Shown here: positions 4,561-28,330 of the stretch, piece by piece | Layout of the letters: every line of letters begins with the position of its first letter | How positions within the stretch are numbered: the stretch's first letter is position 1 | Source: Arthrobacter sp. YN | GTDB lineage: Bacteria; Actinomycetota; Actinomycetes; Actinomycetales; Micrococcaceae | Assembly: GCF_002224285.1 (NCBI RefSeq) | Contig: NZ_CP022436.1 | Span: 3,286,001-3,350,000, forward strand | DNA: 64,000 nt | Direction: 5' to 3' | Translations under genes and position numbers: made by a program | Notes under the pieces: generated by a model | What the model saw: only the letters and a program-made list of their open reading frames with translations | The model's database searches: none | What the model was told of the DNA's origin: nothing

Positions 4561-4570
4561 GTGATCGGAA

Positions 4571-6208
<1,638 letters not shown>

Positions 6209-6292
6209 CTGCAGTCCCTGCTCTCCTGTTTTCGTGATCATCGTTGCTCACGATGACCGGGTTTTATATCAGTTAAGTTGTGCTTAGTCTGG

Positions 6293-7119
6293 CTAGCCAG
6301 CGAGCTGACGGCGGAGTTCGGACAGGCGGGCGATAACCGAAGCGTCGAGCACTTCGTCACCAACCTGGACACGGATTCCACCGATCAGTGCAGGGTCAAC
6401 GTTGAGGTTGACCTTCAGTTCGCGGCCGTACAGGGCATCAAGCCCGGCCTGCAGACGGCTGGCCTGCGTTTCCGTCAACGGACGGGTAACGCTGACAGTT
6501 GCAATCCAGCGCTGCTGACGCTTGGCTGCAAGCTTGGCGAAAGACTCGACGAGCTTGCTCGGCTTGACACCGCGCGGCTGCGTAACTGCCTGGCTGATGA
6601 GAACCTTTGCTTCCTCGCTGCTGCCAGGAACAAGCTTCTCAGCCAGTGCAATCTTTGCCGCAGGGGAACCCTGCGGCTCAGACAGGGCACGTTGTACTTC
6701 GTGGCTGGAGGCGACAATCTGGTTGAAGGCAAACAGATCGTTTTCCAGCTCTTCCAGCCCCGTGATACCGGAGGCAGAAACCGCCGACTTGTTTTCAGCT
6801 ACGGCAATGACAACCGTGGCGGCAAGCGTCTCGAGTGCATCGCCGATATCGCGTGCCGATGCCCAGCGTGAGCTGGCCAGTCCGCCCGCAATTTCAGCAG
6901 CATCAGCGGAGACTTTTCCGCCAACCAGCTGCTTGACCAGCGCCGACTTTTCGTCTCCAGTGCGGGACGGGTCAGTCAGGGCGCGGCGCAAGCCAGCCGA
7001 GCTGTCCACCGTTCCCAGGATTCCGAAGAGGTCCTTAGCCAACTGCAGCGAGGCGAAGGGAAGCTTGGCTTCCAACTGCGCCAGTGCTGTGGTCAGCGAT
7101 TCGCTCGATATACCTGCCA

Positions 7120-7120
<1 letters not shown>
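6293..7120 (-). CDS. atpH: ATP synthase F1 delta subunit
   Basis: Delta subunit of the peripheral stalk, 275 residues, holding the alpha/beta hexamer to the b subunits. The C-terminal part has the OSCP/delta signature (VNLNVDPALIGGIRVQVGDEVLD). It is long compared with the approx. 177-residue E. coli protein, matching the actinobacterial form that has a longer N-terminal half. Its ATG shares one base with the stop of atpF (TAATG), so translation of the two stalk subunits is coupled. Confidence 0.95.
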
Positions 7121-7680
<560 letters not shown>

Positions 7681-25262: not shown

Positions 25263-25754
25263 ATGACTACGCCACTCCGCAAGAGCATTTACGCCGGAAT
25301 TGCCGGCCTTTCCCTCATAGGTGCCGTGGCGGGCTGCGCGCCATCTGCGCAGTCCCCGTCCGCTGAATCCACGCCGGCTGCCGAGAATGGCGGCCAGGCC
25401 AGCACGTCCAGCCCCACTTCTTCCTCTACCGCGTCCGGCTCCACTGCCGCGGGCACCTCGGCATACAAGGACGGCACCTACAGCGCCGACGGCACGTACA
25501 CCTCTCCCAACGGCCAGGAGACCGTGGGCGTGGAATTGACGCTTGCCGGTGACACGGTGTCTGCGGTCAACATCACCACGCACCCTTCGAACCCCAACAC
25601 CAAAAAGTTCCAGGGCGAGTTCGCCAGCGGCATTTCGGCGCAGATTGTTGGCAAGAAGATCGATGAACTCAATGTCTCCAAGGTGGCTGGTTCCTCCTTA
25701 ACGTCCGGCGGGTTCAACGAAGCCGTGAAACAGATCAAGTCCCAGGCCAGGTAG
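25263..25754 (+). CDS. FMN-binding lipoprotein (putative flavinylated electron carrier)
   Basis: A 163-residue exported protein. Residues 1-24 are a lipoprotein signal with lipobox VAGC (Cys25). Residues 26-66 are a Ser/Thr/Ala-rich linker. Residues 67-163 form an FMN_bind domain (YKDGTYSADGTY, then VGVELTLAGDTVSAVNI). GSSLTSGG puts Thr147 where NqrC/RnfG-type proteins carry the covalently flavinylated threonine of the SGAT motif. The next gene encodes ApbE, the enzyme that attaches FMN to such threonines. I prefer ATG 25263 over 25227 because it gives a normal signal peptide. It should sit on the outer face of the membrane. Confidence 0.85.
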   Translation: MTTPLRKSIYAGIAGLSLIGAVAGCAPSAQSPSAESTPAAENGGQASTSSPTSSSTASGSTAAGTSAYKDGTYSADGTYTSPNGQETVGVELTLAGDTVSAVNITTHPSNPNTKKFQGEFASGISAQIVGKKIDELNVSKVAGSSLTSGGFNEAVKQIKSQAR

Positions 25755-25758
25755 CACC

Positions 25759-26631
25759 ATGCCGCGCGCGGACTGGAGCTCCTTCAGTTTTGACGGCATC
25801 GGGACGCACTGGGAGATTTCGACGCCGGAGGCACTGGGACCCGCGGTGCGGCACCAACTGCTGGAAACAGTCAGTGACTACGACACGACGTATTCGCGGT
25901 TCAGGCCGGACTCCCTGGTGTCCGGCCTGTCCCGCGGACCGGGCAGGATCACTTTGCCCGGGCATGCCGCAGCCCTTCATGACGTCTACGCCGCCCTGTA
26001 TCGGCTCAGCGGGGGCGCCATGACCCCACTCATCGGCAGCAGCCTGGAACGGCTTGGCTACGATCCCGGTTACACGCTGGCCCCCTCCGGGAATCCCCAG
26101 GCCCCGCCACGCTGGGAAGACGTCCTTGAGTGGACGGACACGGCCCTGACTGCCACCGAACCCGTGGTCCTGGACATTGGGGCCGCGGGAAAGGGGCAGC
26201 TGGTGGACCTGCTGGGCGGGGTCCTGCAGTCAACCGGCCATTCTGAATTTTTGGTTGATGGGAGCGGCGACATGCTCCATGCGGGCACCCATCCTGTGAT
26301 GGTCGCCTTGGAACATCCCTATGATCCCGGCCAGGCCATTGGCACTGTTGAACTGAACAATTCAGCACTCTGTGCCTCGGCGTCCAACCGGCGGGCCTGG
26401 GGCGATGGCCTGCACCACGTCCTGGATGGGACCACAGGCAGGCCCATCCACACCACGGTGGCTACGTGGACCATGGCTGCGAGCGCATTGGTGGCGGATG
26501 CGTTGGCCACTGCCCTGTTCATGCTTGAACCGGCCCAATTGCAGGATGATTTCGATTTCTCCTGGATCAAGGTGTCCTCCAGTGGTGCCGCCACGTATTC
26601 GCACCGTTTCGAGGGGAGACTGTTCACATGA
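25759..26631 (+). CDS. apbE: FAD:protein FMN transferase
   Basis: ApbE transfers FMN from FAD to Ser/Thr of target proteins. The 290-residue protein has the core motifs: a DTTYSRFRPDS substrate region, a GGAMTPLIGSSLERLGY loop, DIGAAGKGQLVD (Asp139 to Asp150) and VDGSGDMLHAG, then HHVLDGTTGRPI with the metal-binding aspartate. No signal peptide is seen, so the enzyme may be cytoplasmic or exported another way. It starts 4 bp after the lipoprotein gene and overlaps the next gene by 4 bp (ATGA), so it most likely modifies the lipoprotein next door. Confidence 0.92.
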   Translation: MPRADWSSFSFDGIGTHWEISTPEALGPAVRHQLLETVSDYDTTYSRFRPDSLVSGLSRGPGRITLPGHAAALHDVYAALYRLSGGAMTPLIGSSLERLGYDPGYTLAPSGNPQAPPRWEDVLEWTDTALTATEPVVLDIGAAGKGQLVDLLGGVLQSTGHSEFLVDGSGDMLHAGTHPVMVALEHPYDPGQAIGTVELNNSALCASASNRRAWGDGLHHVLDGTTGRPIHTTVATWTMAASALVADALATALFMLEPAQLQDDFDFSWIKVSSSGAATYSHRFEGRLFT

Positions 26632-28130
26632 TTGCCGCTAAGTCCCGCGTAGACACCTGGTTGGGCCGCTTCACGATGTACCGCTTGATTCTGTGGGTGC
26701 TGGGCGCGCTGGTGGCCTACAGCATGCTCCTCAACATTCTGGGCTGGCTGACGTTCGGCCTCCCGGAGATGCTGGTGCATCTGGCGCTCTGCCTGGCGGT
26801 GACATACGTGTCCAACCGGCTCCTGGCGTTGATCTTCCGCGTCAAGCCACATACGGAATCCTCCCTCATTACGGGATTGCTGCTCTATTTCCTGTTCTGG
26901 CCTGCCTTCGGAGTCACTGACATGACAGGCGTGGCCCTCGCCTGCGTGGTGGCCAGCGTCTCCAAATATGCGCTGGCCTTCCGTGGGCGGCACATCTTCA
27001 ATCCGGCCGCGGCCGGGGCGTTCGTCACTGGCCTGACCGGGTTGAACATCGCCACGTGGTGGGCTGCGACCCCCGCAATGCTCTGGCTCCTGGTTCCGGG
27101 TGTGCTGGTTGTTCTGTACCGCACGCGAAAAATGTTGATGGCCACGGTCTTCCTGGTGGTGGCTGCCGGCATCATCACGGTGGAGCTCCTGAGCCGCAGC
27201 ATGACGTTCGGACAGGCACTGTGGCAGTCCTTGGCGCAGAGGCCTCTGCTGTTTTTCGTAGGCTTCATGCTCTCGGAGCCGCTCACCCTCCCTCCCCGCC
27301 GCTGGCAGCAGTTGGCGCTTGCCGGTGTGGTGGGTGTTGTGTTTGCGGTTCCCTATAACTTCGGCTTTGTTGCCAACTCCCCCGAACTCGCGCTGTTGCT
27401 GGGTAACCTCCTGGCCTTCTTCCTGGGCCAACGGGGCGGGGTGGAGCTGACGTTCAAGGGTTCGCGTGCCCTGACTCCGGGCAGCACGGAGTTCAGGTTT
27501 GAGCCGCAGCGCCCGGTGCGCTTTGCTGCCGGCCAGTTCATGGAGCTCAACCTGCCGCACCGGGCTTCCGACGGCAAGGGCCGCCGGAGGGTCTTCAGCA
27601 TCACCAGCGCCCCGGGCGCTCCGGAAGTGACCTTTGGAGTTGGCACGGCCGAGCCGCTGTCCGCGGCAAAGAAGGCGCTGCTGGCTTTGAAGCCCGGCGA
27701 CAAGCTCTCCGCCACGGCCGTAGGCGGGGACTTTGTTCTACCGCGCGACGCCGGCAAACCGGTCCTGCTGATCGCTGCGGGCATCGGTATTACGCCTTTC
27801 CTCTCGCACCTGTCCGCTGACGGCGCGCCTCGCGACACCGTGGTGATGTACCTCGCCAAAGGCCGCGATGAGTTGGCCGGCGTGGAGCAGCTGGAAGCCT
27901 CCGGGGCCAAGGTGATTGCCCGGCTGGCGGACGGTTCGGCGCCCCCGGCGTTCATGGTCGACGCCGGTGCTGCCAGAATCGACGCGGAGCGCCTTAGGGA
28001 GCTGGTCCCTGACGTTGCGGATCGCGAAGTTTTCGTTTCCGGCTCACCAGCGAGCGTCGATTCGCTGCGTGCCGCTGCCCGCTCTGCGGGGGCGCGCCGT
28101 ATCCACGTCGATTCGTTCGCCGGGTACTGA
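26628..28130 (+). CDS. NqrB/RnfD-like membrane domain fused to FAD/NAD(P) reductase domain
   Basis: A 500-residue fusion. Residues 15-270 hold about eight or more membrane helices, with HIFNPAAAGAF (122-132) and FMLSEPLTLPP (213-223) as in NqrB/RnfD proteins. Residues 272-500 are a ferredoxin-NADP-reductase-like module: FAD-binding RVFSITS (321-327), NAD(P)-binding AAGIGITPF (383-391), and the C-terminal FAGY ending. No 2Fe-2S cysteine cluster is present. The layout suggests hydride transfer from cytoplasmic NAD(P)H to FAD and then across the membrane to the flavinylated lipoprotein. Function is inferred from domains and operon. Confidence 0.85.
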   Translation: MIAAKSRVDTWLGRFTMYRLILWVLGALVAYSMLLNILGWLTFGLPEMLVHLALCLAVTYVSNRLLALIFRVKPHTESSLITGLLLYFLFWPAFGVTDMTGVALACVVASVSKYALAFRGRHIFNPAAAGAFVTGLTGLNIATWWAATPAMLWLLVPGVLVVLYRTRKMLMATVFLVVAAGIITVELLSRSMTFGQALWQSLAQRPLLFFVGFMLSEPLTLPPRRWQQLALAGVVGVVFAVPYNFGFVANSPELALLLGNLLAFFLGQRGGVELTFKGSRALTPGSTEFRFEPQRPVRFAAGQFMELNLPHRASDGKGRRRVFSITSAPGAPEVTFGVGTAEPLSAAKKALLALKPGDKLSATAVGGDFVLPRDAGKPVLLIAAGIGITPFLSHLSADGAPRDTVVMYLAKGRDELAGVEQLEASGAKVIARLADGSAPPAFMVDAGAARIDAERLRELVPDVADREVFVSGSPASVDSLRAAARSAGARRIHVDSFAGY

Positions 28131-28252: not shown

Positions 28253-28325
28253 GCCCTCGTAGCTCAGGGGATAGAGCGTCTGCCTCCGGAGCAGAAGGCC
28301 GTAGGTTCGAATCCTATCGAGGGCA
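28253..28325 (+). tRNA. tRNA-Arg (anticodon CCG)
   Basis: Full cloverleaf: acceptor GCCCTCG/CGAGGGC, D-arm GCTC/GAGC, anticodon stem TCTGC/GCAGA with loop CTCCGGA (anticodon CCG, reading CGG), T-arm GTAGG/CCTAT with TTCGAAT, and discriminator A. CCA is not encoded. A strong intrinsic terminator follows 5 bases later. Confidence 0.96.
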
Positions 28326-28330
28326 CAACG

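Follow-up and report, generated by a model that had tools for sequence, protein, structure and literature searches.

How would a protein on the outer face of an actinobacterial membrane acquire a covalent flavin if the enzyme expected to attach it has no detectable export signal? The question is raised by a compact group of three genes in Arthrobacter sp. YN, within the 64,000 nucleotides of contig NZ_CP022436.1 analysed here (positions 3,286,001 to 3,350,000, hereafter the window, whose own coordinates are used throughout). The features of this trio are as follows.

25263..25754, + strand: FMN_bind lipoprotein, the presumed flavinylation substrate, 163 aa (ORF, Pfam, homologues)
25263..25337, + strand: signal peptide with lipobox VAGC, Cys25 (sequence)
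25695..25697, + strand: codon of Ser145, aligned with the Thr that is flavinylated in SGAT proteins (alignments)
25701..25703, + strand: codon of Thr147, the +2 position, taken as the acceptor site in the first-pass annotation (alignment)
25759..26631, + strand: ApbE-family FMN transferase, 290 aa, with no signal peptide (PF02424)
26628..27440, + strand: NqrB/RnfD-like membrane domain, fusion residues 1-271, with no RnfD covalent-FMN stretch (PF03116 matches of homologues; motif absence)
27441..28130, + strand: FAD/NAD(P)H reductase domain, fusion residues 272-500, plus the stop codon (relatives; PF00175)
26628..28130, + strand: membrane-reductase fusion, 500 aa, whole gene (ORF)

The three genes are real at these coordinates and spacing, as the first-pass annotation had proposed, and are supported by open reading frames, Pfam and homologues; a 4 bp gap separates the lipoprotein gene from apbE, and apbE overlaps the fusion gene by 4 bp (ATGA). 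On the opposite strand there are Pfam-predicted genes for arginyl-tRNA synthetase and a diaminopimelate-decarboxylase-type enzyme, which we label argS and lysA from their domains, and a thermolysin-type protease (Pfam) is encoded downstream of the trio. A tRNA-Arg(CCG) gene is also located downstream (window 28253-28326), with the arginyl-tRNA synthetase gene divergent and upstream. The closest organism-named proteins, among the best 120 of 3312, are from Arthrobacter or Paenarthrobacter. A non-systematic look at the flanks revealed neither an iron transporter nor any other evident acceptor partner beside the trio.

The N-terminal half of the fusion protein is hydrophobic, and the relatives of its C-terminal half are BenC, flavohaemoprotein and ferredoxin reductases. 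Taken alone, the fusion has only a weak Pfam match to NAD_binding_6 and none to PF03116 or PF00175 at E up to 1, and its assignment is made through homologues. In an alignment of 30 fusions (the window protein and 29 of 40 fetched), 8 match PF03116 NQR2_RnfD_RnfE (E up to 0.1; best 2.6e-7) and 26 match PF00175 NAD_binding_1 (E up to 0.1). A solved-structure search with the fusion profile places the best 60 of 185 matches in the reductase half, with a few starting slightly before it. The motif [ST]GA[ST] is absent from the membrane half of all 30 aligned fusions, and the stretch of E. coli RsxD bearing DGISQAT is about 75 residues shorter in the fusion (39 residues from NPA to the next landmark versus 114 in RsxD, with landmarks picked by eye). 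The membrane half thus lacks the stretch in which RnfD bears its covalent FMN.

These properties place the trio in the published NQR/RNF-like flavinylation systems, which are described as an NqrB/RnfD-like domain fused to an NAD-binding domain in flavinylation gene clusters, with 127 clusters mainly from Actinobacteria and CPR and a proposed one-way flow from NAD(P)H (Meheust 2021, PMC8238504). Their membrane domain is reported to have no NqrB/RnfD flavinylation site, and to have a site for non-covalent flavin that the exofacial one may reach (Huang 2024, PMC11334425). The trio shares with them the FMN_bind subunit, the fused NqrB/RnfD-like and NAD-binding domains and the flavinylation gene cluster. 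The PF03116 membrane domain is recognized in homologues (8/30) and not in the window protein alone; PF00175 lies C-terminal in the same protein in 26/30 homologues, and the window protein has reductase relatives; the lipobox lipoprotein adjoins apbE; and the membrane domain carries no flavinylation site. The first-pass description of a complete chain in three genes is thus a fair one, but the architecture has already been published and neither it nor the electron-transfer inference is new. Two features stand apart, namely a Ser in GSSLT and an ApbE with no signal, on both of which the accessible portions of the published descriptions are silent. The window fusion would itself escape the published definition, having no PF03116 or PF00175 match at E up to 1. 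The Rnf/Rsx and Nqr complexes (RnfD/RnfG, NqrB/NqrC) share the homologous membrane subunit and the FMN_bind subunit. In contrast to them, the trio has argS, lysA and the thermolysin-type protease as neighbours and no further Rnf/Nqr subunits, and its membrane domain is shorter, lacks a DxxSxAT-type site and is fused to the reductase.

We looked for the same trio in related genomes, as the first-pass annotation had suggested. It is complete in 39 of 40 family loci taken from eight genera, which argues against a chance assembly; sampling here and in the counts below is uncorrected for kinship. The argS gene adjoins in all 40, usually with lysA too. The membrane half was found in 155/395 family genomes and 9/32 genera, and in the window's genus in at least 70 of 77 genomes among the matches listed (hand count). 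Fourteen of 16 chosen family genomes have no membrane half, and 13 of these 14 have no GSSLT lipoprotein either. In one locus (L087 of genome G085, positions 4566-7494) the fusion stands alone beside argS and a divergent MFS gene replaces the lipoprotein and apbE; a search of that genome did not find the GSSLT lipoprotein, and another ApbE is present. The apbE frame of locus L069 is interrupted, possibly through decay or assembly error. More widely, ApbE was found in 168/296 class genomes, and 60 class ApbE loci were taken. A GSSLT lipoprotein is encoded in 13 of these, and in 13/13 the membrane and reductase domains and ApbE lie beside it, in one case (L139) with the two domains as separate frames; 12 of the 13 are outside the window's genus and have no argS or lysA match in the fetched stretch.

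Several loci have unusual structures. Genome G009, the fourteenth of those without the membrane half, contains at C5:113328-113662 a remnant of lipoprotein residues 5-33 (29 residues) beside a piece of the reductase (query 420-500), which looks like a loss of the central part of the trio. In G030 (C1:2319021-2320534) the fusion is split into two frames, which could reflect decay or an assembly error. As for insertions, locus L150 has a MOSC-domain gene, and in L143 other genes, one with no Pfam match, lie between those for the lipoprotein and ApbE.

The window ApbE is a strong match to PF02424 (119.7 bits; cut-off 25.6) and is the single ApbE found in a scan of the genome. It carries the catalytic Ser-His-Asp: Ser207, His220 and Asp247, which we mapped onto the reported triad by alignment with a solved ApbE, are invariant in 27 aligned copies. 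Export signals were sought with a home-made test that requires three things ahead of the domain (a start codon, a positive charge and 10 hydrophobic residues in a row) and was run at a narrow and a wider setting; the signal of E. coli ApbE is detected at the narrow one. The first-pass annotation had overlooked that the signal or lipobox of an extracytosolic ApbE is missing here: neither was detected in the window ApbE at either setting, and no export signal was found in any of 38 readable family copies (the broken L069 frame omitted) or 60 class copies (0/48, and 0/12 with a divergent N-terminal half), again at both settings. At the wider setting the test scores a signal and lipobox in 37/39 family lipoproteins and a signal in 19/24 FMN_bind partners in class loci. 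In other classes of the phylum an ApbE signal was detected in 16/40 loci at the narrow setting (15/20 in a high-scoring batch and 1/20 in a lower-scoring one). The 24 negatives, of which 19 belong to the lower-scoring batch, show that signal-less ApbE also occur beyond this system and class, and they weaken the contrast with other classes.

Most ApbE proteins seem to be secreted, and cytosolic ones are cited for intracellular substrates (PMC12052999). In Listeria, FAD is described as exported for an external ApbE (PMC9973259), and the secretion signal of a Streptomyces multi-FMN protein was taken to fit external transferases (PMC10339131). In searches of the flavinylation literature, none of the titles and abstract openings listed mentions actinomycete ApbE lacking signals. 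Because published ApbE are external where substrates are exported and those described here are signal-less, the flavin may be attached before export in this class. The reading that we favour, and consider rather probable, is a one-way Nqr/Rnf-like conduit in which the lipoprotein receives its FMN from a cytoplasmic ApbE before Sec export. The same conduit could operate with ApbE exported non-classically, flavinylating the exported lipoprotein outside, in keeping with published systems whose exported substrates are described as modified there. We think this unlikely, as a permissive test that detects E. coli ApbE finds nothing in the window, family or class copies, stop codons just 5' of the apbE start exclude longer forms in several loci, and FAD would have to be exported as well.

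The putative substrate combines lipobox Cys25 with a linker rich in Ser and Thr and a weakly matching FMN_bind domain. The window protein scores 20.9 bits over residues 87-157, just below the Pfam cut-off of 22, and the genome scan gives 22.9 bits for what is the sole FMN_bind gene found in the genome; FMN_bind is matched by 28 of 30 aligned homologues (E up to 0.1; the window protein and 29 of 39 fetched). Searches of solved structures with the lipoprotein gave no meaningful match. Substrates are reported to carry D-x-x-[S/T]-G-A-[S/T], whose final residue bears the FMN, Thr being preferred and Ser accepted less well (PMC12052999). The window lipoprotein departs from this motif and reads S-K-V-A-G-S-S; the Asp (-6) is present in only 7/30 aligned lipoproteins, and position -1 of the acceptor column, where the canonical motif has Ala, is Ser in 30/30. 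Conservation within the family is strict, with Ser-Ser-Leu-Thr kept in 39/39 fetched lipoproteins and both Ser145 and Thr147 invariant in the 30 aligned. In an hhalign comparison with E. coli RsxG, Ser145 falls on the Thr of TGAT without a gap, at low probability (0.5 percent with RsxG; hhalign to RsxD likewise gives a low value, 7.6 percent). SGATYTS homologues found with the lipoprotein-family profile also align gaplessly at the motif, with Ser145 on their acceptor and Thr147 on a +2 Thr that they carry too. The GSSLT sequence and its Thr at position 147 are as the first-pass annotation described them, but its choice of Thr147 as acceptor is probably wrong, and these alignments point to Ser145 as the most likely site of a covalent FMN.

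The departures from the motif, in the missing Ala and mostly missing Asp, could also mean that the GSSLT lipoprotein holds FMN only loosely, if at all, and that ApbE has a different, cytosolic target or acts as an FAD hydrolase; cytosolic ApbE in a recent review act on intracellular proteins (PMC12052999). This we judge improbable, to about the same degree as external flavinylation, given that ApbE adjoins the lipoprotein in 39/40 family loci, that Ser-Ser-Leu-Thr is present in 39/39 lipoproteins, that scans of the genome found a single ApbE and a single FMN_bind gene, and that Ser is an accepted acceptor (PMC12052999). A two-residue shift that put covalent FMN on Thr147, which is invariant in 30/30 and of the preferred acceptor type (PMC12052999), is less likely still, since Ser145 takes the acceptor column gaplessly and Thr147 matches the +2 Thr of the SGATYTS proteins.

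In the conduit with cytoplasmic loading, NAD(P)H would reduce the FAD of the cytosolic reductase domain, electrons would cross the NqrB/RnfD-like domain through a non-covalent flavin, as published models suggest, and the covalent FMN on the outer-face lipoprotein, most likely at Ser145, would receive them and reduce an acceptor in the envelope. The path from NAD(P)H through FAD and the membrane to external FMN that the first-pass annotation drew is thereby partly supported: the anatomy fits, and the scheme is published for the class of systems (Meheust 2021, Huang 2024). The conserved neighbour argS, usually with lysA, is uninformative as to the electron acceptor that the first-pass annotation asked about. 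The partner ApbE would attach the FMN, most likely in the cytoplasm, as its missing export signal suggests, and on a precursor still unfolded and awaiting export by Sec; Ser145, 18 residues from the C-terminus, would be among the last parts exported. That ApbE could act on an unfolded precursor is made plausible by its in vitro failure with one designed substrate that was folded (PMC10722498). An opening of about 22 A is reported for SecYEG, and the statement from the same source that the Sec channel takes only unfolded chains counts against the explanation (PMC5963308). Tat was considered as a general export route for the trio and rejected, an RR before the hydrophobic region being present in only 7/39 lipoproteins. 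The motif departure, the weak FMN_bind score and the low hhalign probabilities also speak against the conduit, as does genome G085, in which the membrane-reductase gene persists and no such lipoprotein was found.

A second type of system is present in these bacteria. Actinobacterial MsrQ-like systems share with the trio an ApbE (with no signal, 0/12), an exported FMN_bind protein and a membrane domain with an NAD-binding reductase, but their membrane domain is Ferric_reduct in 5/5 checked and the acceptor motif is SGA[T/S] in 8/11. The 11 further class loci concerned encode another FMN_bind protein, each with a different reductase nearby. In a sample of the window's genus, ApbE is present in 50/51 genomes (the exception being 68% complete), and with ApbE typed as trio or MsrQ by Pfam match range and counts tallied by hand, 12 of the 50 have the trio type only, 31 both, 7 the MsrQ type only, and none neither. 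An outward flavin conduit thus looks general in the genus, with every ApbE-bearing genome having one type or both. We make no claim that the two types interchange (Fisher p 0.17, kinship ignored).

Thirty-five actinomycete ApbE loci from outside the window genome (L103-L137) have no detected FMN_bind neighbour and mostly contain a small ORF just upstream of apbE, whose product has a hydrophobic segment and a tail of low complexity. The picked ORFs end exactly in GS in 23/35 cases, versus 7/458 control ORFs of the same loci, a control that is not composition-matched against ORFs picked for low complexity, two of which (in L127 and L132) are misfits. Those of L103, L105, L110 and L112 have TGAS at or near the end, and the three loci that were checked contain NuoF-like genes, one also Ferric_reduct. 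The product of the small ORF is possibly a substrate lacking the FMN_bind fold, its FMN held by a disordered tether.

We propose, tentatively and at somewhat less than even confidence, that actinomycetes load FMN in the cytoplasm onto unfolded precursors of exported flavoproteins, which then pass through Sec, and that the acceptor in the Nqr/Rnf-like branch is a Ser near the C-terminus. If this is right, Pfam-based surveys that rely on the membrane domain would find too few of these systems, given that 22/30 homologues miss PF03116 (E up to 0.1). Cytoplasmic loading could be tested cleanly in this genome, where single ApbE and FMN_bind genes were found. If true, the accepted order, in which export is followed by external flavinylation with exported FAD, would be reversed in actinomycetes, and a bacterial class would supply flavin to its surface electron-transfer proteins with no export of either FAD or the transferase.
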